From positions 1-25,583 of the IMG/VR virus record IMGVR_UViG_3300046466_000069: 25,583 nucleotides of DNA. One strand, given 5' to 3'. The position numbers and the translations under genes were made by a program. The DNA comes from a virus. Below, piece by piece: positions 1 to 19,192 of the stretch. Below the pieces are notes generated by a model, which saw only the letters and a program-made list of their open reading frames with translations, was not told the DNA's origin and did not search any database. The number at the start of each line of letters is the position of its first letter. Position 1 is the first letter of the stretch.

Positions 1-1143
1 CCTCAGACGGAAGAAAGTATTTATAACAAGCTACAAACAAAAGGATATGAATGTCGTATCTGGCCTTCAAGGTATCCAAAGAAACCACAGAAATACGGTG
101 CTGCGTTAGCACCAATGATACTTGAGAACTGTGTCGATCTTGTTAATAAACCAACTGACCCTGATCGCTTTAATGAACTAGATCTAATTGAAAGAGAAGC
201 TAGTTATGGTAAGTCGCAATTTACTCTTCAGTTTCAACTAGATACGACACTTAGTGATCTAAATCGTTTCCCTCTTAGATTGTCTGACTTAGTAGTTTTA
301 GAAGTTGACCAAGACGCACCTGAGAAGGTGGTGTGGTCTTCTGGTGCTGAGTATCGGATTACTGATTTACCGGCTGTTGGGTTTAGTGGTGATTACTATC
401 ACAGGCCAGCGTTTATACATGGGCAGTGGATTGAGTTTCAAGGATGTGTAATGTTTATAGATCCTTCAGGTAAGGGTTTAGATGAAACTGCTTATTCCAT
501 TGTCGCTCATCTCAATGGAAATTTATTTGTACTGGAGGTGGGTTCCTTTCGTGAAGGTTATACCGAGCCTGTCTTAAGAGGAATTGCAGAAGCAGCTAAA
601 CGTAGAAAAGTAAAACTGATTCTCTTAGAAGATCAGTTTGGTCAAGGCATGATGGAAAATTTATTGCAGCCTTACCTCAGAGAGATCTATCCTTGCACGA
701 TTGAACCAACTAGGAGCAACGTCCAGAAGGAAAGAAGAATTATTAATGCTCTTGAGCCAGTAATGAATCAACATCGGTTGATCTTTAATCGCTCGGTAAT
801 TGAAGATGATTCCAAAGCTAGAGATGATGATTCCGTAGAGACAGCCTTGGCATACCAGTTGTTTCATCAATTAACTCATCTCACTGTCGATAAACAATCT
901 TTACAACATGATGACAGATTAGACTCGTTAGCTGGTGCAGTTCAGTATTGGAACGAATCTCTTGCTATAGATGAAGATAGAGCTATTAAGGAACGTGAAG
1001 CAGAACTCTGGGAATTGGAATTGGCAGCGTATAAAGGTGATATTGAGGGCCTTCTCGATGCACAAATACTTGGTGTCCCACTCACACAAGTCCAAAATAA
1101 AAACCCAAAAGCAGGATGGATCAGAACCCACGGGAACCACTAA
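1..1143 (+). CDS. Terminase large subunit, T7 gp19-like (5' end outside window)
   Basis: This is the C-terminal 380 residues of the DNA packaging motor. The frame is open from base 1, so the ATPase domain and start codon lie outside the window. The first residues (PQTEESIYNKL, then CRIWPSRYP) match the T7 gp19 segment that follows the ATPase core. The RNase H-like nuclease domain is intact. The first acidic residue is in FIDPSGKG (Asp codon 460-462), the second pair is in LLEDQFGQG (codons 628-633), and the last cluster is DDRLDSLAGA (910-924). In this family such acidic residues bind the metals that cut concatemeric DNA. It is transcribed rightward, opposite to all virion genes in the window; in T7 terminase and virion genes run in the same direction. 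The 3' end overlaps a possible tiny ORF at 1116. Confidence 0.95.
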   Translation, partial: PQTEESIYNKLQTKGYECRIWPSRYPKKPQKYGAALAPMILENCVDLVNKPTDPDRFNELDLIEREASYGKSQFTLQFQLDTTLSDLNRFPLRLSDLVVLEVDQDAPEKVVWSSGAEYRITDLPAVGFSGDYYHRPAFIHGQWIEFQGCVMFIDPSGKGLDETAYSIVAHLNGNLFVLEVGSFREGYTEPVLRGIAEAAKRRKVKLILLEDQFGQGMMENLLQPYLREIYPCTIEPTRSNVQKERRIINALEPVMNQHRLIFNRSVIEDDSKARDDDSVETALAYQLFHQLTHLTVDKQSLQHDDRLDSLAGAVQYWNESLAIDEDRAIKEREAELWELELAAYKGDIEGLLDAQILGVPLTQVQNKNPKAGWIRTHGNH

Positions 1144-1235
1144 ATACAGACCTAGAGGATGGGTGGTGCGCATCCCTTCTGCTTTTGTTGGTTATAGTTC
1201 TGTTTCTGATTGTGGATTTCAAACGGTTGTCATAG
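1116..1235 (+). CDS. Possible 39-residue single-helix membrane peptide overlapping the terminase end
   Basis: An ATG at 1116 inside the last codons of terminase opens a 39-codon frame. It has a polar, mostly acidic N-terminus (MDQNPREPLNTDLEDGW) followed by one very hydrophobic stretch of about 17 residues (CASLLLLLVIVLFLIVDF) and a short basic tail (FKRLS). This layout fits a small membrane peptide such as a pinholin or spanin component, and in T7 the lysis genes lie near the terminase genes. Against it, there is no convincing ribosome binding site (an AGG directly abuts the ATG), and T-rich DNA often gives hydrophobic frames by chance. The frame also overlaps the alternative candidate at 1166-1342. 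Treat it as a candidate only. Confidence 0.25.
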   Translation: MDQNPREPLNTDLEDGWCASLLLLLVIVLFLIVDFKRLS

Positions 1236-1342
1236 CTGAAACTCCTGATGCTGCTTTAGATGTCGCTTCTAATTCTCATGTATGGGAGCATCTAGGGTTT
1301 CCTGTTAGTGATTTCCAAGTATTTCCGCAAGATCCTCTTTAA
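1166..1342 (+). CDS. Possible small hypothetical protein (58 aa), GTG start
   Basis: A frame open through the end of terminase continues to a TAA at 1340-1342 and reads like real protein in its second half (VVIAETPDAALDVA, then WEHLGFPVSDFQVFPQ). The best start is the GTG at 1166, six bases after AGAGGA; another GTG at 1163 is too close to it. From there the product is 58 residues, soluble, with no membrane segment. The frame is also open upstream to an ATG at 971, but that part is antisense-like low-quality sequence inside terminase. It ends tail to tail with the minus-strand gene at 1339-1518, sharing three bases. I recall short proteins of this style in cyanophages but cannot name a function. 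Confidence 0.45.
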   Translation: MRIPSAFVGYSSVSDCGFQTVVIAETPDAALDVASNSHVWEHLGFPVSDFQVFPQDPL

Positions 1343-1518
1343 ACTCTCCACTTACGATTACGTTCTGGTGGATGATGACCAGCGACAGTTTTTTCTAATT
1401 CATTTAGTCGATTAAATAATTCTCTAGTATCTCTATCTCGGCGGTTGCTGATATTACTAAGTGACATGATGACAACGCTGGCTGTTGCACCAATGATTGC
1501 TGCTGTAATCTCTGCCAC
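1339..1518 (-). CDS. Small membrane-anchored protein (59 aa), GTG start, on the opposite strand to its neighbours
   Basis: The complement reads from a GTG at 1518 to a TAA at 1339 and encodes 59 residues. Residues 2-22 (AEITAAIIGATASVVIMSL) form one predicted membrane helix. Next come a strongly charged helix rich in Arg, Asp and Glu (SNRRDRDTRELFNRLNELEK) with leucines spaced as in a short coiled coil, then a His/Pro/basic tail ending RNRKWRV. An in-frame stop lies two codons upstream of the GTG, so no longer start exists; an internal ATG at residue 18 would remove the helix. I see no Shine-Dalgarno. One helix plus a short coiled coil is common in small phage membrane proteins of holin-accessory or pinholin type, but no function can be assigned. 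It is the only minus-strand gene embedded in the rightward cluster. Confidence 0.6.
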   Translation of the reverse strand: MAEITAAIIGATASVVIMSLSNISNRRDRDTRELFNRLNELEKTVAGHHPPERNRKWRV

Positions 1519-1542
1519 TGTTCAAAATAACAAATTGTGTCT

Positions 1543-1563
1543 AGTGTAGGACGGCCTACCACT
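1543..1563 (+). other. Hairpin just upstream of the gene at 1571
   Basis: GTAGG (1546-1550) pairs with CCTAC (1555-1559) around the loop ACGG. A one-base bulge at 1560 then allows three more pairs, AGT (1543-1545) with ACT (1561-1563). It ends seven bases before the ATG at 1571, and the only AGG that could serve as ribosome binding site is inside the stem. It has no T-tract on either strand, so it is not an obvious terminator. Confidence 0.4.
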
Positions 1564-1570
1564 GATTTCT

Positions 1571-2017
1571 ATGGAAGAAAAGAAAGTAGATGAACCGAAA
1601 AAGAAGAATCCTCTTCAAAAACTAAAGGAGGGTTTAGATGATAAAGAAGAACAACTGCAAGTCTTGTCTACATTTGTGAGATTGGGAGTTGTCGTCTGGA
1701 GTGGCTTTATATTAACACTTAATTACGTTACTATTCCTGGATTAGGGGAGCAAGAAAGGATCGACCCGACTTTCATAGCAAGTGTTTTCACAGGTGCATT
1801 AGCTTCATTTGGATTGGAAACTGCAAAGAAAAGAGGAGATGGAACTTATAAAGCAGATGAAGATAAGAAAAAAGCAGAAGCAGCAGGAGGATTTGCTAAT
1901 GGTGTTCCTTATACCATTGTAAGAATTGAGACTCCAGTAAAATTAGTACCAGATAAACCACGTATTGACCCTATTTCTGGTAAAGAGATAGATCCACAAA
2001 CAGGCAAATTGACATGA
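1571..2017 (+). CDS. Two-helix membrane protein, holin candidate (148 aa)
   Basis: The N-terminus is a charged cytoplasmic-type segment with many Lys, Glu and Asp (residues 1-30). It is followed by a hydrophobic segment at about 32-53 (FVRLGVVVWSGFILTLNYV) and a second, weaker one at about 67-83 (TFIASVFTGALASFGLETAK). The rest is a lysine-rich, probably flexible tail. Two helices joined by a short loop with a charged terminus resemble class II holins, although 148 residues is long for that class. I recall very similar proteins in marine cyanophages annotated only as hypothetical. It starts a run of signal-peptide genes: its TGA overlaps the ATG of the next gene (ATGA at 2014-2017), so translation is probably coupled. 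The holin role is inference. Confidence 0.85.
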   Translation: MEEKKVDEPKKKNPLQKLKEGLDDKEEQLQVLSTFVRLGVVVWSGFILTLNYVTIPGLGEQERIDPTFIASVFTGALASFGLETAKKRGDGTYKADEDKKKAEAAGGFANGVPYTIVRIETPVKLVPDKPRIDPISGKEIDPQTGKLT

Positions 2018-2511
2018 AGAAGTTATTAATCCTTTTGTTACTGGCTGCACCCTGCCAAGCAGAAATTACATCGAAGCTTTCTAGCTCTACTTCTTTGTCG
2101 GTTGGAGGTAGTACCACTCAGGCAATTAGAATTCCATCAACTTACGCAGTATCGGGAACAAATATCAAGGTTTCTACTGGAGAACATATAGGCAAGCTTA
2201 CGGCTGGTTCAGCTACAGCCGCAGCTACGCTTGATGTTGGGACATACGAGATAAATACGGCAGGATCAGCATTTTCACTAAGCACCTCTTGGCAGCAAGG
2301 GGACGCTATACCAGCAATAGGAAGTGGTGTAGATGTTAGCAGTGGTATTGTTGCTGACATGCCTGTTTTTGGTAATACAACTACTATGTCAGGCGGCGTA
2401 GCAGGCACACTTGCGGGTACAGTGCTTAGTTCTGGTGTGGTTACAGTAGTAGCAGGTGGTGCAAATACTACGGCTGTAGGACAAGTAACTAACGAGCTTA
2501 CAGTTAGGTGA
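2014..2511 (+). CDS. Sec-exported low-complexity beta-rich protein (165 aa)
   Basis: The N-terminus is a textbook signal peptide: MKK, a run of leucines, then APCQA with cleavage likely after residue 16. The Cys in it lacks a good lipobox because Pro precedes it, so signal peptidase I is the better call. The mature part is rich in Ser, Thr, Gly, Ala and Val, has no Cys, and alternates small and beta-branched residues (for example VGGSTTQAIRIPSTYAVSG and the Gly/Thr/Val-rich end). That suggests an extended beta structure such as an adhesin or fibre. It overlaps the upstream gene by four bases and is followed ten bases later by another signal-peptide gene. I recall similar proteins in cyanomyoviruses, function unknown. 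Confidence 0.85.
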   Translation: MKKLLILLLLAAPCQAEITSKLSSSTSLSVGGSTTQAIRIPSTYAVSGTNIKVSTGEHIGKLTAGSATAAATLDVGTYEINTAGSAFSLSTSWQQGDAIPAIGSGVDVSSGIVADMPVFGNTTTMSGGVAGTLAGTVLSSGVVTVVAGGANTTAVGQVTNELTVR

Positions 2512-2521
2512 AATTAGTATT

Positions 2522-2950
2522 ATGCGCACCCTTTTACCTTTTGTATTGTTGTTTGGTTCTGCTGTACAAGCCGTACCAGTTGTGCCTCAGTTCACACAAG
2601 GTACGCAAACCACAAACACCGAAACGGTTACAAAAATTACAGAGACAATCAACTCGATTGACATAAATACAGGCTGGCAATACACGGTTACAGGTACAAA
2701 CATGAAACATTCTGGTTCATCTGTTTCTCCAACAACCATTGCAGCCCCTTCTCAAACCACTGATGGCATTACTTACACATGGGTTGGCTTAGATCATTCC
2801 AACAAACCAAATTGGGAACTAGAAATACCAGGTTCAGCTTTTCAATTTACCGAAACATACGCTGCTCCTGGGGTTGCAAGTCAGACAATCATCCAAAGAA
2901 CAACCGATCAAACAAGTATTACCGACACTACCTCTATATTCCAGCAATAA
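2522..2950 (+). CDS. Sec-exported hypothetical protein (142 aa)
   Basis: Residues 1-17 (MRTLLPFVLLFGSAVQA) form a signal peptide with an AQA-type site (VQA), giving a mature protein starting VPVVPQF. The mature part is Thr-rich, has no Cys and reads as beta-sheet (INTGWQYTVTGTNMKHSG, then GITYTWVGLDHS). It ends in a glutamine- and threonine-rich tail. The ATG lies eleven bases after the TGA of the preceding gene, with a weak AGGTGA upstream. The last codons overlap the region where the next exported protein must begin. The function is not recognisable; size, composition and position suggest it works with its two exported neighbours. Confidence 0.82.
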   Translation: MRTLLPFVLLFGSAVQAVPVVPQFTQGTQTTNTETVTKITETINSIDINTGWQYTVTGTNMKHSGSSVSPTTIAAPSQTTDGITYTWVGLDHSNKPNWELEIPGSAFQFTETYAAPGVASQTIIQRTTDQTSITDTTSIFQQ

Positions 2951-3645
2951 TTGCGTTATGTTTACCTGCTAATGCTGGTGATGTCGGCGGCGTTAGTGCT
3001 ACCGCTGCTCCTAATGCGTCATCTAGTGGAAGCGTTATCAACCAAGGCGTACAAGTCCTACAAGGGCCATTCCATACCAACACATACGGTAACGGAATAC
3101 AGTGCCAAGGGACTACATTAAGCATTACACCGTTTATTACAGGTGCTTTATCGCTTAAGCGACCCTACGAAAGCTATTACCAAGACCCTGTTTACGATAC
3201 AACTGATGTAGATGGTGATGGAATAATTGATAATCCAGGGAATGTTTTATATTTCAAAGACATAAGGACAGGACAAAAGGACTCTACAAGCATCACAGGC
3301 GGCCTCTCAGCGACGCTTAGTGTCCCACTGGATAAAAGATTCACGACTCGTTGTTTATCTGCCGCTACAACCCAAGAGAAAATACAACAGCAGGTCTTGG
3401 CTAACAAGAGGCTTGATTTTGAAATTGCGAGGCTTCGTGAGTGCAGTAAATTTAAAGCTCAAGGAATTAACTTTCATCCTGATAGTCCTTCATATACTAT
3501 CTGTGCTGATATTTTGACGACTCCTTATAAGGAGAAACCAATACCTCATGTTCATTCTATTTCCTCAGACTCTTCTGTTCCTTTCTCCTTTCAGATAAAG
3601 ACAGAACCTTTGGTTTCTTCCCCCGTAGAGCAAGAAGCTTCTTAG
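2938..3645 (+). CDS. Sec-exported protein with four cysteines; start codon unclear
   Basis: The frame encodes a hydrophobic segment ending CLPANA, a likely signal-peptide cleavage site before GDVGGVSATAAP, then about 220 mature residues. These include four Cys (in IQCQGTT, TRCLSAA, RECSKFK and TICADIL) that could form disulfides outside the cytoplasm, and a DVDGDGIID stretch like a calcium-binding loop. A helical charged segment lies near QQQVLANKRLDFEIARLREC. The start is a problem: the only ATG in frame, at 2779, adds 53 residues that are an out-of-frame shadow of the previous gene, and no GTG or TTG lies near the signal peptide. ATT at 2938 would give a compact signal peptide and is used here provisionally. 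I recall the GDVGGVSATAAP-type N-terminus from cyanophage hypotheticals. The 3' end overlaps the opposing gene by 89 bases. Confidence 0.7.
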   Translation: MPAIIALCLPANAGDVGGVSATAAPNASSSGSVINQGVQVLQGPFHTNTYGNGIQCQGTTLSITPFITGALSLKRPYESYYQDPVYDTTDVDGDGIIDNPGNVLYFKDIRTGQKDSTSITGGLSATLSVPLDKRFTTRCLSAATTQEKIQQQVLANKRLDFEIARLRECSKFKAQGINFHPDSPSYTICADILTTPYKEKPIPHVHSISSDSSVPFSFQIKTEPLVSSPVEQEAS

Positions 3646-4333
3646 TAATTTTCTTAGAAATCTTTTTAACTTGACCTTTCATCTGTTTCTGGAGCAGCTT
3701 TGCTATCGGTTGGCCTAATACAGTTACACCGATAACTGAAGTAACAGCTATCGCGCTTGTATTAAGTAATGTCGTTGGTGGAGGAGTGTAAGTGTTAACA
3801 ACTTCCAGTACACTTCTTTCCTCGTATAGGACTTTGCATTGATTTCCATTTCGTTTGTACCCTTGAATTATTTTTGTTCCATATTTTCCAATTGCTCCTA
3901 TGGGTAAATCGTCAGGTCTAGGGCAAGGAAGGATTTTTGGAACTAAAGGACTTTGTGGTGAAGGTGGTGGGTTATTGTTTGTTTCTGTTGAATTAGATTC
4001 TTTCTTTTCTTCTTTTTGTTTAGCAGAATTAATTTTTGGTGTGGTGGGTTGAGGAGTTGGTTCTATGTCTTCTGGTCTAAAAACAAGAGGATTAAATGAA
4101 GGCATCCCTGCGTCACAAAATACCTTAAGTCCTCGGTCATCGGCTGAGTTTAAATTCTTATTGTTACCTGAATCTGGATTTGCTTCTACGCAACCAGGGA
4201 TTTCAAATATTAAATTAGGTTGTTCTAATGTAAGAGTTATGGGTTGAACATTGGGAATGTTCGGAGAAATTGTGTCGATAGAATTATCAGGGATAAAAAT
4301 ATTATCGATTTGTATATCTGGAATCTCATCCAC
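3557..4333 (-). CDS. Membrane protein with cysteine-bearing N-terminal domain and basic tail (258 aa)
   Basis: The GTG start at 4333 directly follows the TAA of the upstream gene (TAAGTG), implying translational coupling. Residues 1-90 are Ile/Pro/Asn-rich with Cys48 and Cys73. Residues 91-130 are a low-complexity Pro/Lys/Glu/Asn linker. Residues 131-180 hold Cys137 and Cys166 in a small domain (KILPCPRPDDL, GYKRNGNQCKVLYEE). A hydrophobic helix lies at about 188-212. The C-terminus is strongly basic (KKISKKITKKLLALRGKK, then LSLSERRKEQK). Four Cys before the helix and Lys/Arg after it suggest an N-outside, C-inside topology without a cleaved signal. I recall this architecture and the LSxSERR ending in cyanophage hypotheticals. 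The function is unknown. Its last 89 bases are antisense to the convergent gene. Confidence 0.85.
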   Translation of the reverse strand: MDEIPDIQIDNIFIPDNSIDTISPNIPNVQPITLTLEQPNLIFEIPGCVEANPDSGNNKNLNSADDRGLKVFCDAGMPSFNPLVFRPEDIEPTPQPTTPKINSAKQKEEKKESNSTETNNNPPPSPQSPLVPKILPCPRPDDLPIGAIGKYGTKIIQGYKRNGNQCKVLYEERSVLEVVNTYTPPPTTLLNTSAIAVTSVIGVTVLGQPIAKLLQKQMKGQVKKISKKITKKLLALRGKKPKVLSLSERRKEQKSLRK

Positions 4334-4855
4334 TTAGCAGTCCACGAAATCACTACCAATATCTTTACCAATCTGCCCTGCTTTCTTAACAGCAACTGCA
4401 CTAGCAATCCAGCCTATAACTGGGATGTTAGACAATGTGCTAGCAGCAGGAGTAGCAGTAACTAAAGAAGTTCCTACTATCTCTCCCTGTGATTCTGCAC
4501 TGCCTTTGTTTTTAATACACTGAAGATAACTAGCTGCTAACCCTGCATTTTCTCCAGGCTGATGTGCAACATATTCTTTCCTTGTGTAATCAGTTTTACC
4601 ATTCCATTTAGATTTTTCTGAACTAAATAAAACTGTTTTAGGTGAATGCATGTTGTGGTTTATTGTCACCTCTAATCCTTGCTCGTCTTTCTTGTATCGC
4701 ATCTGGCTACTACTGTTTTCTGTCGTAGCTAACGATGCAAGATTTGGCAGCGAGTCTCCTGACTTGCTTAGCAAGATAAGGGAAAAGAAATTACTACCGA
4801 TTAATCCGAGACCGAGGAGAAGAGGAAGATAGTTACCTTCCTTCAACTGTGTCAT
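4334..4855 (-). CDS. Membrane-anchored hypothetical protein (173 aa)
   Basis: A hydrophobic segment at residues 9-30 (YLPLLLGLGLIG, then FFSLILLS) looks like an uncleaved N-terminal anchor, since no good cleavage site follows. A polar domain comes next, with a conserved-looking block EYVAHQPGENAGLAASYLQC around Cys113. A second hydrophobic, Ala/Gly-rich stretch lies at about 129-156 (LSNIPVIGWIASAVAV), and the protein ends exactly in a cysteine (DFVDC, Cys173). Cys113 and the terminal Cys could pair. The ATG overlaps the TGA of the preceding gene (ATGA at 4852-4855), and the next gene starts at the base after this stop, so the three genes are translated as a tight unit. I recall similar cyanophage proteins but know no function. 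Confidence 0.85.
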   Translation of the reverse strand: MTQLKEGNYLPLLLGLGLIGSNFFSLILLSKSGDSLPNLASLATTENSSSQMRYKKDEQGLEVTINHNMHSPKTVLFSSEKSKWNGKTDYTRKEYVAHQPGENAGLAASYLQCIKNKGSAESQGEIVGTSLVTATPAASTLSNIPVIGWIASAVAVKKAGQIGKDIGSDFVDC

Positions 4856-5040
4856 AACTTAGGTAATCCTGTTGTGGTGGGCATTGAAGGCATTGATTCT
4901 TTAACCAATTCAGGGATTTGACCCTTTACCTTATCTAAAAGTATATTCACAACTTTATCTTTATTCAAGTAACCAAAAACACCAAGCCCAATAACTCCTA
5001 TGTTTAAAGTTAAAGAAGCGATAGCGATAGTTTTAATCAT
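4852..5040 (-). CDS. Small single-helix membrane protein (62 aa)
   Basis: The ATG at 5040 gives MIKTIAIASLTLNIGVIGLG, a membrane helix that is either an anchor or an unusual signal. An amphipathic segment follows (NKDKVVNILLDKVKGQIPEL), then a Pro/Met/Thr-rich tail ending TGLPKL. A longer frame from 5118 adds 26 basic residues, but that part overlaps the upstream gene and the inner ATG sits four bases after the upstream stop, so I prefer 5040. A GGGAGG motif lies 13 bases upstream, which is far for a ribosome binding site. Its stop overlaps the next start (ATGA). I recall the helix plus TG-P-L tail pattern from cyanophage hypotheticals. Confidence 0.8.
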   Translation of the reverse strand: MIKTIAIASLTLNIGVIGLGVFGYLNKDKVVNILLDKVKGQIPELVKESMPSMPTTTGLPKL

Positions 5041-5044
5041 TGGT

Positions 5045-5347
5045 TTATTCTGCCTCCCATTCTGCACCAATCTCTTTCTCAACGTCCTCCTCTTTCCATT
5101 TATAAGTTTTACCGTCATCTAATGGATGATTATTCTTCCATCCTCCATCATAAATATATTTAAGGGGATGCCAGTCAGTCTTATCAGCTACGTCTTTTAT
5201 TAAAGTACAAGTTGATGAATTGTGATCAAGAATAGTATTAGTTACTGGATTGCCTACAAATATGCGATCAGTTAATATATCTATTTTTTCATCATCACTC
5301 CATAAGTACATAGAGCGTTTAGTTGTGTTGTCGATTAAAGTTTGCAT
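5045..5347 (-). CDS. Small acidic hypothetical protein (100 aa)
   Basis: This soluble protein has no membrane segment. Its first half reads as beta strands (RSMYLWSDDEKIDILTDR, then IFVGNPVTNTILDHNSSTC). A segment DWHPLKYIYDGGWKNNHPLD follows, resembling short cyanophage proteins in which a K-Y-x-Y/F-D-G motif recurs. The end is Lys/Glu-rich (KWKEEDVEKEIGAEWEAE). It lies 34 bases after the tail-fibre stop and begins the four-gene leftward unit that ends at 3557. No Shine-Dalgarno is visible. It could be a small virion or fibre-associated protein, given its place next to the fibre gene, but that is inference. Confidence 0.8.
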   Translation of the reverse strand: MQTLIDNTTKRSMYLWSDDEKIDILTDRIFVGNPVTNTILDHNSSTCTLIKDVADKTDWHPLKYIYDGGWKNNHPLDDGKTYKWKEEDVEKEIGAEWEAE

Positions 5348-15337: not shown

Positions 15338-18300
15338 TCAAGCTAAACCTGACGATGGATCTATGGTACTGGATTCTTGGGGTTGAAGCTCAATAATTTC
15401 TTTTGCTATCTTCCTTGCTGCATCCATGTGTTCAAGATGTAGTTTATCTTTATAAGAAGCCCAAGCATTAAATAGTCCTTCTAAATCTTTATTTAGCCAA
15501 GGTTCATTCTTATAAATATCATAGGCAGCTTTTGCATTTAAATTAATATCAAACAAGTCACCTCTGTTTTTTAGCCAAGGCCATTTAGCTTCACGCCATT
15601 TACCTAAATCTTTTGTCATACCTGTGTCTAACATATTTATTTGAAGAGGCCCATAGCTTTCGTCTGTATCATTTAAGTCAGGATGATTTCTAATACTGCG
15701 TGTTCCTGTCTCTGACATCGCAATAGCAATCATTGTTGTAAGTTCTTCTTCATCTTTAAAACCTGCGGAATATAAAGCAGTACCTAGTTCTGTTTGTCTT
15801 TGTTTTAAAGGTGTATTAGGTTCCCAAGTTCTATCAAATTTTGATTCTGCTAATGGTTTTAATCCTGAAGGTACTGTTTTTATATTAATTTGTGGAAGCA
15901 TACCAGCTTGTAAGTTACCAGCAATTAATAGTTCATCTTCTCTGTCAAGAATCATTGCTTGATCTTTGTCGTTGTTAACTTTATTTAATAGTCCTTTTCT
16001 AAATAAAGGATTTTCTATTTTGCCATGCCCTTCTATTTTCTGAGTAGATAATCTTTTGATAATTCTTTCTTTAAGTTTTTCTGGCATCTCATCTCCTGTA
16101 TGAACTTTATATTGTTTAACCAAGAAATCAATAGGTTGTGTACCTGTTTTTTTAAGAATTATATTTAGATCGTGAGCATAAGGAATCCACGGTGCTTGTG
16201 CATCTAATGCGTTTATTTGTTCTAAGAAAGTATATTTTTCATATAAAGCTTTTTCTGTCATCTCTATTCTTAATGTATTTCTATCGTTTAATTTTCCTCT
16301 CCCTTCTCCAAGTTTTTCGACAATCTGAAAAGGTGTCTCTGCAAAGAATGTACCTCTCATTTCCATTAAAGTTATCTCATGTGGTTCTGGTGCTGCTGGA
16401 TCAACACCTTGTCCGAAATATGTAAATAATTCTTCTTTTCTTTTGTTATTATAATTTTTTAAGATAGAAGAACCAAGGAGTTCTGAAGCCTCTAATTCAT
16501 TGTCTAACCATCCTATATGTATGAGTGGTTTATATATCCCTCTAAATTTCTGATTAAGTTCTGTCTTTGTTCTTTCCTTTGCTAGTCCTCTTGCATCTGC
16601 TTGAGCACTTACATTTTCTTGAAATGCAGCAGAGAAAGTAGGAATGTATTTATATTCTTTTCCACGTGTTGATAGTTGATTAGAACTGTATCCGTTCCAA
16701 TGTAAATTAGATTGGAAAACAGGATCATTAGCTTGTTCAGATTTATCTATTAATAAGTCAATATCTTTATACATTTGATCTAATATTTCTGGTGAAAGAT
16801 AGCCAGCATTATCTTTAATCGCCTTCTCTAATCCTGCTGTTAAGAAAGAACTGGTTGCAGTATATGGTTTAACACGTTGCCAAGCTTGAGGATCTTTTCT
16901 TAAGAGGTCTAGGTCGGGCATTAATATCTGATCTCCATCTTTAATTGTTCCATCTCCAACTAATTTTTTATAGTACTCACTTAGAGTTTCCCAGTTGTAA
17001 ACAGCTTCTTCTACATCACTAACAGCTAATTCATATTCTTCATTATCTGAATAAGAAGTGTCGGGTACTGTATATACAGAGTTGTCTAATCTTGTGATTG
17101 TAACTTGTTCTACTTCTCCATCTTTTAAATTTGGTTTACCACCTTCAGTTCTCTGAACATCGGATTGTTTACCTAGTATCCGTTCATATTCTTTAATGTA
17201 TGGATTGTTAGCATTTAGTTTATCTTTAGCCTCTACATTCATCTTATTAAATTTGTCTTTAGTAACACCCCATAACTTTCTTATCTCAGCAAGTTTCTGG
17301 CGTTTATTAAGTTTGTCTTCTTTATCTGCCCATATACGACTAGATTCAAGAACAGTTTCATCTAGTAGGGCTGCTATCCTGACTTGCTCATCACCAGTTA
17401 CTTGATTCCTGCTTTCTATTCCTGCAACACCTAGCAGGTCATTTAGTGCAGCTTGATTTAATTCATTTTGTACAAGATCATTGTAGGCAGTATCAATAAC
17501 ATATTTCACTTCAGCTTCCTGAAGTCTAATTAAACCATCTACTCTACTTGTTAAGTCATTAGCTTGATCTTTAGAAATAAGATTATATCTTTCAGCGTGT
17601 CTTACCTTTGCAAGTTTTAGTTGAGGTGAAACATTAAAGAGTCCAATATAATCCTCTAATTCTTGGCCTGCGGTATATTGATCTCCTTCTAATCCTTTAA
17701 GATGTAAGGATACTAAATCTTCTAGTACTTCTATTTTATCTTTGCGAGTTTTGTAATCACCAGGTGCATTAAGAATCTCTTGTTTTCTGGTAGTTGCGTA
17801 TTCTGTTAATCGTTTAGGGTTAAGGGAGAACTTAACATTTCTAGGATTTTTTAAACCACCAACATTTATGACCCACGGTTGAATACCTTCTGTTTTCTCA
17901 TCTGCATCTTTAAAACTTTCTAATTTGCTGTAGAAAAGATTTTGTTCACTGTTAACTGCTGCTAATTTATTTGTAAGTTCACGACTGTTTTTCGCCTGAT
18001 AATATTTATTACCAAGTTCTGTTTCTAATTCTGCTATAAAGAATGGGCCTAGTTTACCTTTGTCACTTATTAATAAAGATCTCTTTTCATTAGTAAGTGG
18101 CCCTGTTTCGGCTGCTTTTAATTCATCTATTATATAATCTTTAACTGAATCAAATAAGGCAGGGTCTATATTTCCTTCCTTATTTATTGAATTTGCTATA
18201 ACTAAATTAGTTAATGTCGTCTTAAAATTAGTCTCTATATCTTCACGACCTTTGAAGCTCATTCCTGAGATAAATAAGGTATCAAAAGCTTCAGTAAGAT

Positions 18301-19192
18301 CTGTTCCTTTTACATAGTTTTTCCTTTCAGTTAAAAAATTACTTTTTATTTTATTGTTAATATCATAAATGAAAGCATCTTTATGAAATCCATCTTGTTG
18401 ATCAGCATATTGTTTACTTACTGTCCTTTTTATATTTGCATTTTGATTGACCATCGATTGCCTTAAGTCAATTAAAACACTTGGAGTACCAACACCTGCA
18501 TCGCTATAGTATTTAGTTAAGGCAATATCTAATGGACTTGGAGTTCCATCTTCTGTATATGGTTTTAATATAATAGGTTTGTCATCTTCATCTCTTAAGT
18601 TGTTTATATAATCAGGTGCATTAGCTATTAACTGTAATCCCTTTTGGTATTCTAAAGATCTTGCTAAATAATCTCCTGCTCTGGGGTCTAATGACTTAAG
18701 TAAGTTGTAATTATCCTCGGCTAATGTTATTTGTTGTGCTGATAATACCTTGCTATTTCTATCTCTATCTGCTTTCTCAAGAAGTTTATTGTAATCACCC
18801 ATCAAGTTTCCATTTGTCTTAGAAAGCTTGACAGCAACTTCTTCTGCTCTTTCTTTTGCTAATTTATTTTCTTGTTGTTCATAAGAAAGATAAGAAGTCG
18901 TAAAATTTTGAAGATTAGTATTTAAACTTTTAAGTGATGTTGCAAGGTTATCTAGGTCAGGACTTGGCTTGGCAACAGTAGATCCTTGTGGAACTGCTGT
19001 TGGCCCTGCTGCTCTAGGTGCAGTAGGAGCGACAAAAGTACTAGCACCTGAAGCTTGAGGTTGAAGGCTTGGAATCCTTAGATCTAAACCTTGTCCAATA
19101 GGTAAGGAACTAGCTCCCATCGAAGGGCCACCACCTCTTTTCTTAGAAGTAGTTACGTCAGGAGAACCGAAAGAGAATTTTTTAGTAGCCAT
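15338..19192 (-). CDS. Internal virion protein, T7 gp15-like, with C-terminal lytic transglycosylase-like domain (1284 aa)
   Basis: This second ejection protein lies between gp14 and gp16 homologues. The N-terminus (residues 1-75) is a Gly/Ser/Pro/Ala-rich flexible segment. The middle is a long, charged, mostly helical body with no membrane segment, as in gp15. Residues about 1140-1270 form a lysozyme-like fold of the SLT/goose-lysozyme type: the putative catalytic Glu1161 in IAIAMSETGTRSI, then ESYGPLQINM (1178-1187), which corresponds to the family's S-x-G-LMQI-N motif, then FNAWASYKD. Such domains cut the glycan strands of peptidoglycan to let the ejection tube through. In T7 this activity is at the N-terminus of gp16, so here it lies on the other side of the gene junction. 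The start overlaps the gp14 stop (TGATG). Confidence 0.9.
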   Translation of the reverse strand: MATKKFSFGSPDVTTSKKRGGGPSMGASSLPIGQGLDLRIPSLQPQASGASTFVAPTAPRAAGPTAVPQGSTVAKPSPDLDNLATSLKSLNTNLQNFTTSYLSYEQQENKLAKERAEEVAVKLSKTNGNLMGDYNKLLEKADRDRNSKVLSAQQITLAEDNYNLLKSLDPRAGDYLARSLEYQKGLQLIANAPDYINNLRDEDDKPIILKPYTEDGTPSPLDIALTKYYSDAGVGTPSVLIDLRQSMVNQNANIKRTVSKQYADQQDGFHKDAFIYDINNKIKSNFLTERKNYVKGTDLTEAFDTLFISGMSFKGREDIETNFKTTLTNLVIANSINKEGNIDPALFDSVKDYIIDELKAAETGPLTNEKRSLLISDKGKLGPFFIAELETELGNKYYQAKNSRELTNKLAAVNSEQNLFYSKLESFKDADEKTEGIQPWVINVGGLKNPRNVKFSLNPKRLTEYATTRKQEILNAPGDYKTRKDKIEVLEDLVSLHLKGLEGDQYTAGQELEDYIGLFNVSPQLKLAKVRHAERYNLISKDQANDLTSRVDGLIRLQEAEVKYVIDTAYNDLVQNELNQAALNDLLGVAGIESRNQVTGDEQVRIAALLDETVLESSRIWADKEDKLNKRQKLAEIRKLWGVTKDKFNKMNVEAKDKLNANNPYIKEYERILGKQSDVQRTEGGKPNLKDGEVEQVTITRLDNSVYTVPDTSYSDNEEYELAVSDVEEAVYNWETLSEYYKKLVGDGTIKDGDQILMPDLDLLRKDPQAWQRVKPYTATSSFLTAGLEKAIKDNAGYLSPEILDQMYKDIDLLIDKSEQANDPVFQSNLHWNGYSSNQLSTRGKEYKYIPTFSAAFQENVSAQADARGLAKERTKTELNQKFRGIYKPLIHIGWLDNELEASELLGSSILKNYNNKRKEELFTYFGQGVDPAAPEPHEITLMEMRGTFFAETPFQIVEKLGEGRGKLNDRNTLRIEMTEKALYEKYTFLEQINALDAQAPWIPYAHDLNIILKKTGTQPIDFLVKQYKVHTGDEMPEKLKERIIKRLSTQKIEGHGKIENPLFRKGLLNKVNNDKDQAMILDREDELLIAGNLQAGMLPQINIKTVPSGLKPLAESKFDRTWEPNTPLKQRQTELGTALYSAGFKDEEELTTMIAIAMSETGTRSIRNHPDLNDTDESYGPLQINMLDTGMTKDLGKWREAKWPWLKNRGDLFDINLNAKAAYDIYKNEPWLNKDLEGLFNAWASYKDKLHLEHMDAARKIAKEIIELQPQESSTIDPSSGLA

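Follow-up and report, generated by a model that had tools for sequence, protein, structure and literature searches.

Sullivan et al. 2010 reported, for 15 of 16 cyanomyoviruses, five clustered hypothetical genes that are often accompanied by a plasmid-stability gene; their passages on the cluster describe the genes as 'clustered for functional reasons' and leave them otherwise unexplained (PMC3037559). In a survey of spanins, about 20 phages of Prochlorococcus and Synechococcus were without an identifiable system (PMC6139136). Phages of these hosts are among the most abundant marine viruses, and how they break the outer envelope is an open question. The stretch analyzed here, referred to as the window, comprises 25,583 bp (positions 1 to 25,583 of the IMG/VR virus record IMGVR_UViG_3300046466_000069) and carries a group of small envelope-targeted genes related to that cassette. 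Four of them, p1, p3, p4 and p6, form a core common to T4-like, T7-like (P-SSP7, P-SCSP1 and the window) and MED4-184-like phages, and we consider the chances about even that the group is a late, cyanophage-specific envelope module that performs the membrane steps of host lysis.

The window covers part of a T7-like cyanopodovirus genome. Its terL gene, cut by the left edge, encodes a large terminase subunit (TerL) with 77% amino acid (aa) identity to that of P-SCSP1p; genes for the tail fibre, internal virion proteins, nozzle, tail and major head protein, with head and tail genes of T7 type, are also present. Seven envelope-targeted genes occupy the interval from terL to the fibre gene in the order p1>p2>p3>p4> <p6<p7<p8, and all match conserved phage families to which no function is assigned, except that the family of p8 bears the name 'plasmid stability' (family E-values in brackets):

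p1, 1571-2017, plus strand: core protein of 148 aa; DUF6450 = PF20048 (6.3e-33), phrog_2714 (7.7e-44)
p2, 2014-2511, plus strand: accessory protein of 165 aa, predicted to be exported; phrog_564 (4e-41)
p3, 2522-2950, plus strand: core protein of 142 aa, predicted to be exported; DUF6322 (3e-33), phrog_650
p4, 2779-3645, plus strand: core protein of 288 aa; phrog_848 (1e-92)
p6, 3557-4333, minus strand: proline-rich core protein of 258 aa with a GTG start; phrog_570 (2e-46)
p7, 4334-4855, minus strand: accessory protein of 173 aa with an N-terminal transmembrane (TM) anchor and a C-terminal cysteine; phrog_605 (3e-13)
p8, 4852-5118, minus strand: accessory protein with an N-terminal TM helix; phrog_568, 'plasmid stability' (3.4e-8)

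A sequence-only reading of the window had described an island of membrane and secreted proteins at this place; with seven open reading frames (ORFs) matching conserved families, the island is confirmed, and its size exceeds what chance would give. Annotation of S-SM1 equates T4-GC 218 with p1, 414 with p8, 219 with p7, 234 with p6, 235 with p4, 236 with p3 and 237 with p2, and PHROG matches, these labels and synteny together indicate that the window holds homologues of all the clustered genes and of the 'plasmid stability' gene. The cassette of Sullivan et al. (T4-GC 218/219/234/235/237, plus 414 and 236) thus has the same genes and convergent order as the window. It belongs, however, to T4-like cyanomyoviruses, whereas the window phage is T7-like by its TerL and its head and tail genes, and in the window p1 heads the other operon. 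The passages of that paper dealing with the cassette give no topology, nested start, podovirus core or lysis proposal (PMC3037559). What is new here is the four-gene core across lineages, the nested start of p4, the late motifs, the placement in the T7 lysis interval and the exchange of the module; a literature search returned no paper naming DUF6322 and none describing the module as lytic.

The core behaves as a fixed set. Across 18 complete genomes the presence patterns of p1, p3, p4 and p6 are identical, with all four genes in 12 and none in six; five of the positives (P-SSM2, P-HM1, S-SM1, S-TIM5 and S-RIP1) were absent from the query alignments. Two additional cyanomyoviruses, S-SZBM1 and S-CREM2, are without p3, p4 and p6, giving 20 isolate genomes of which 12 have the four core genes, seven have none and one has a weak p1-like gene only. 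This last is a lone two-helix gene, S-CREM2 gp131 (L353 180-374). Among 150 metagenomic loci with enough flanking sequence, p3, p4 and p6 occur in 150 and p1 in 149, in several gene orders; as these loci were picked by p4, the figure measures linkage given p4. Independent occurrence of the genes, which the sequence-only reading had named as the outcome that would break its idea of a single module, is therefore not seen in 149 of 150 p4-bearing loci, and p1 is kept even in S-TIM5 and P-SSM2, where it lies apart from the other core genes.

Profile detection recovered the order p6-p1-p3-p4 in P-SSP7 (PSSP7_042 to 045), P-SSP10 and SS120-1, p1-p3-p4 with a convergent p6 in P-SCSP1p, and p1>p2>p3>p4> <p6<p8 in MED4-184, a phage that one source places in Siphoviridae and another among the dwarf myoviruses. 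The relatives in cyanomyoviruses named in the sequence-only reading, and the sharing between phage families proposed on that basis, are thus borne out. A first search linked p6 weakly to the short proteins of podoviruses (E-values of 1e-3 to 1e-5), and the later value of about 1e-20 came from an alignment already including those proteins. A tblastn search found p1 in 429 phage records, p3 in 404, p4 in 419 and p6 in 366. The names of matched records refer to Synechococcus, Prochlorococcus, cyanophage, Tiamatvirus or marine virus, with one 'uncultured' each for p4 and p6, and the 429 records for p1 are exclusively cyanophages or marine viruses from single amplified genomes. A scan of a genome collection with p4 gave nine contigs, comprising one long Prochlorococcus single-cell contig and contigs of metagenome-assembled genomes with mixed taxon labels, which are provisionally read as phage DNA. 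A host origin of p4 was set aside, as the same scan gave no clear cellular homologue; the horn and knob proteins of Syn5 were likewise rejected as relatives, Syn5 being without any core gene.

The fourth core gene has an unusual start. The sequence-only reading placed a gene at 2938, but the codon there is ATT, and a non-standard start at this codon was rejected in favour of an ATG at 2779, which lies inside p3 in the -1 frame and gives a p3/p4 overlap of 172 nucleotides (nt). Near the p4 export signal there is no start codon, and 79 loci share an ATG in the -1 frame, 163-169 nt upstream of the p3 stop, whose place is never taken by GTG, TTG or CTG; together these assign p4 of the window to 2779-3645. 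When p3 codons were reshuffled synonymously, the frame stayed open in 2% of trials and was open with an ATG in 0.8% per locus. The nested open frame with ATG was observed in 47 of 47 distinct p3 tails, which are related sequences and not 47 independent events. Four other p3 tails (P-SSP10, MED4-184, a truncated one and locus L081) are without that ATG, and in P-SSP7-like loci, where p4 is nested in p3 as well and the relative frame is unchanged, p4 starts with GTG, TTG or ATG. In L081, p3 and p4 are naturally uncoupled by about 600 nt and p4 has an ordinary signal peptide. A programmed -1 frameshift from p3 to p4 was set aside on account of the conserved internal ATG, and no consistent slippery site was seen. 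The nested start serves as a correction for those gene callers by which p4 is missed or given a wrong start.

The p4 sequence also bears on the history of the module. Window p4 has 51-64% identity to cyanomyovirus versions and about 25-30% to those of P-SCSP1p, P-SSP7 and P-SSP10, and a 99/99 branch of the p4 tree sets the other podoviruses on one side; since MED4-184 and P-SCSP1 have very long branches, their deeper position is uncertain. As p4 is cyanomyovirus-like although the terminase is closest to that of P-SCSP1p, the module was exchanged. These sequence relationships support replacement of the window module by a cyanomyovirus-type version, the direction not being proved.

Hydropathy and alignment agree with much of what had been proposed for the individual proteins. 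The two-helix holin candidate corresponds to p1, a membrane protein with a two-helix hairpin and charged ends, whose homologue in P-SSP7 is annotated with two TM regions. The exported and anchored proteins are likewise recovered, with N-terminal export signals in p2, p3 and p4 (the p4 signal core lying near residues 54-66) and TM helices in p6, p7 and p8. By profile comparison p2 is probably related to p3 (probability 96.8%, E-value 2.4e-10, driven partly by the signal peptide). Both genes that had been credited with four cysteines have them: C43, C126, C156 and C176 of mature p4, invariant across 77 sequences, and C48, C73, C137 and C166 of p6. No N-terminal signal is present in p6, which has a C-terminal TM helix followed by a basic tail with a net charge of +7 to +16 in five groups; when the positive-inside rule is applied to this tail, an N-out/C-in orientation is predicted. 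The 3' end of p6 overlaps p4 tail-to-tail by 89 nt, and the Syn9 pair overlaps similarly. Searches of solved-structure sequences with p2, p3, p4 and p6 profiles gave no match. AlphaFold models of p4 reached a predicted local distance difference test score of 57 and then 66, with a predicted template modelling score (pTM) of 0.28 and then 0.36, and Foldseek found nothing significant outside p4's own family; the models are too weak for use.

The cyanophage late motif is NATAAATA in S-PM2 (PMC2984593). Measured against mononucleotide shuffles, it occurs upstream of p2 in 17 of 33 cyanomyovirus loci (4.0 expected) and upstream of p1 in 16 of 32 (3.8 expected), and it is not enriched upstream of p6 or p7 in such loci. 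Both operons in T4-like phages thus carry T4-type late promoter motifs, and by motif the module would be late. In P-SSP7, P-SSP10 and SS120-1 the core lies between the fibre gene and TerS. In the T7 gene order the holin and spanin genes fill the interval 17.5-18.7, and the core of T7-like phages occupies this interval; P60, which is without the module, has an endolysin in the same fibre-TerS slot (gp37, PHROG E-value 2.8e-31). Lysis is suggested jointly by the T7 position, the P60 endolysin, the late motif, the restriction to these hosts and the lack of spanins reported for such phages, and many carriers of the module are on the 'spanin-less' list (PMC6139136).

How such a module might act can be sketched more tentatively. 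In the mechanism we propose, p1 would act as a holin in the inner membrane, p6 would be anchored there by its C-terminal helix and basic tail with its proline-rich part reaching the periplasm, and p3 and p4, made from overlapping frames, would be exported and act at the outer membrane. Jointly, p6, p3 and p4 would substitute for the lipoprotein-based spanins missing in these phages, while p2, p7 and p8 would be accessory parts. That p6, p3 and p4 make up a lipoprotein-free trans-envelope machine breaking the picocyanobacterial outer membrane, and with p1 as holin a common lysis system passed as a unit, is possible, though we lean against this full version; topology and complex formation are inferred. 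The anchor and tail of p6 match an alternative i-spanin topology proposed in PMC6139136, and the lone p1-like gene of S-CREM2 fits an autonomous holin.

Several observations weigh against a role in lysis. Practically no lipobox is found in p2, p3 and p4 (0/24 for p4 and 0/23 for p3 in window-type loci, and near zero in exported members of other groups), so these are not classical spanins. No peptidoglycan hydrolase was recognized in the module, and PF00182 and PF01510 had no match in the 18 genomes; for GH19 endolysins the scan is uninformative, because the PF00182 control was silent too. As the spanin-less phages Syn5, S-PM2, P60 and S-CBS4 are without the module, it cannot be the sole solution. 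The long N-terminal part of p6 has no signal for its export, and the weak p4 model (pTM 0.36) gave no significant match to solved structures. Of the four functions first offered for the island, a multi-part lysis system nevertheless appears to fit best, given the late motifs, the T7 lysis position and the 'spanin-less' carriers; the idea that it supplements a standard lysis set is doubtful, as in T7-like cyanophages the module occupies the position of that set.

Among the other explanations, superinfection exclusion or outer-surface remodelling survives best but is unlikely. Exported p2, p3 and p4 would coat or plug receptors, keeping out other cyanophages or sparing progeny from debris, and this would agree with envelope targeting of every product, with the sharing of the module by unrelated phages of the same hosts and with two related secreted proteins (p2 and p3). 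Late-promoter motifs speak against a protective role early in infection. Genes for exclusion tend to vary and to be dispensable. By contrast, this core is kept as a fixed set, and the cluster was reported in 15/16 cyanomyoviruses (PMC3037559).

A complex that spans the envelope as a channel or transporter for phage metabolism, for instance in nutrient uptake or efflux, with p4 and p3 in the outer and p6, p7, p8 and p1 in the inner membrane, is also improbable. It would account for inner- and outer-membrane-type parts in a single set, and the p4 model weakly resembles the FlgH L-ring (E-value 0.13) and the lysenin pore (0.39), but these matches are not significant, the model is poor and Pfam and PHROG scans found no transport domain. 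We regard it as quite improbable that the products belong to the virion or its tail, or decorate the virion in the periplasm: the late motif, the adjoining tail fibre genes in T7-like phages and weak Foldseek matches to phage tail and collar proteins would suit this, but export signals in three members and membrane helices in four are unsuited to a virion assembled in the cytoplasm. The phages S-CREM2 and S-SZBM1 are without the core, hence their virion proteomes are no test of this explanation. A selfish mobile cassette or plasmid-maintenance unit, proposed in the same passages of Sullivan et al. 2010 (PMC3037559) and repeated for S-SCSM1 (PMC9602691), is highly implausible: the module yielded no toxin, antitoxin or recombinase, the 'plasmid stability' label goes back to a family name, and p8 is short, single-TM and not detected in P-SSP7- and P-SCSP1-type loci.

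Other features of the island and its surroundings are less closely tied to the module. The p8 gene probably begins near 5040, which would make its product about 62 aa long, the length seen in relatives, and p9 (5045-5347), with neither signal nor TM helix and no family match, is outside the shared gene set. Two overlapping plus-strand frames follow terL, a 39-aa single-helix ORF at 1116-1235 and p0 (1118-1342, 74 aa). The former is probably not a real gene, because in the most divergent relative it is absent whereas the p0 frame is kept and has an ATG of its own; this start codon appears to read ACG in the window. The large internal virion protein (15338-19192, minus strand) has a C-terminal SLT_3 lysozyme-like domain (Pfam 6e-6) and is a candidate ejection-time murein hydrolase. 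A further small frame lies between p0 and p1, and small look-alike proteins occur near terminase genes of several cyanopodoviruses, module-bearing or not (phrog_2738 where scanned):

ORF x, 1339-1518, minus strand: single-TM peptide of 59 aa; phrog_26178 (1.5e-5)
Small terminase-adjacent proteins: L004 4763-4927; L096 7581-7742; L097 3376-3537 (minus strand); L098 10666-10836

ORF x is 71-100% identical in relatives of the window's podovirus lineage, and its membership in the module is uncertain; in topology it is like Syn5 gp47 and P60 gp38.

A fixed core that is late by motif and, in the collections searched, restricted to phages of marine picocyanobacteria offers a definite candidate, with parts open to experiment, for the breakage of the outer envelope; if the proposal is true, it would also mean that genes facing the host envelope are swapped between phage lineages as a unit. 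The fibre-TerS interval of P60 and Syn5 is the same slot and holds membrane or lysis genes (the endolysin P60 gp37 and the single-TM P60 gp38 and Syn5 gp47), but unlike that of module carriers it has none of p1, p3, p4 and p6. In comparison to Rz/Rz1 (T7 18.5/18.7), the module has no lipoprotein and no sequence match, its overlapping pair consists of two exported proteins, and its inner-membrane candidate p6 is anchored C-terminally; the N-terminal TM helix that marks an i-spanin is found in p7 and p8, both outside the minimal core. Shared with Rz/Rz1 are the genome interval in T7-like cyanophages, an out-of-frame overlapping gene pair and the combination of inner-membrane and exported partners. 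No similarity of p1 to Pfam holin families was found, its matches being to DUF6450 and to PHROGs without a relevant function only. In its architecture p1 resembles the class II holins (T7 gp17.5 and lambdoid S21), having likewise two helices, a short loop and a charged C-terminal tail, with an expected N-in/C-in topology and a shared position after the tail fibre.

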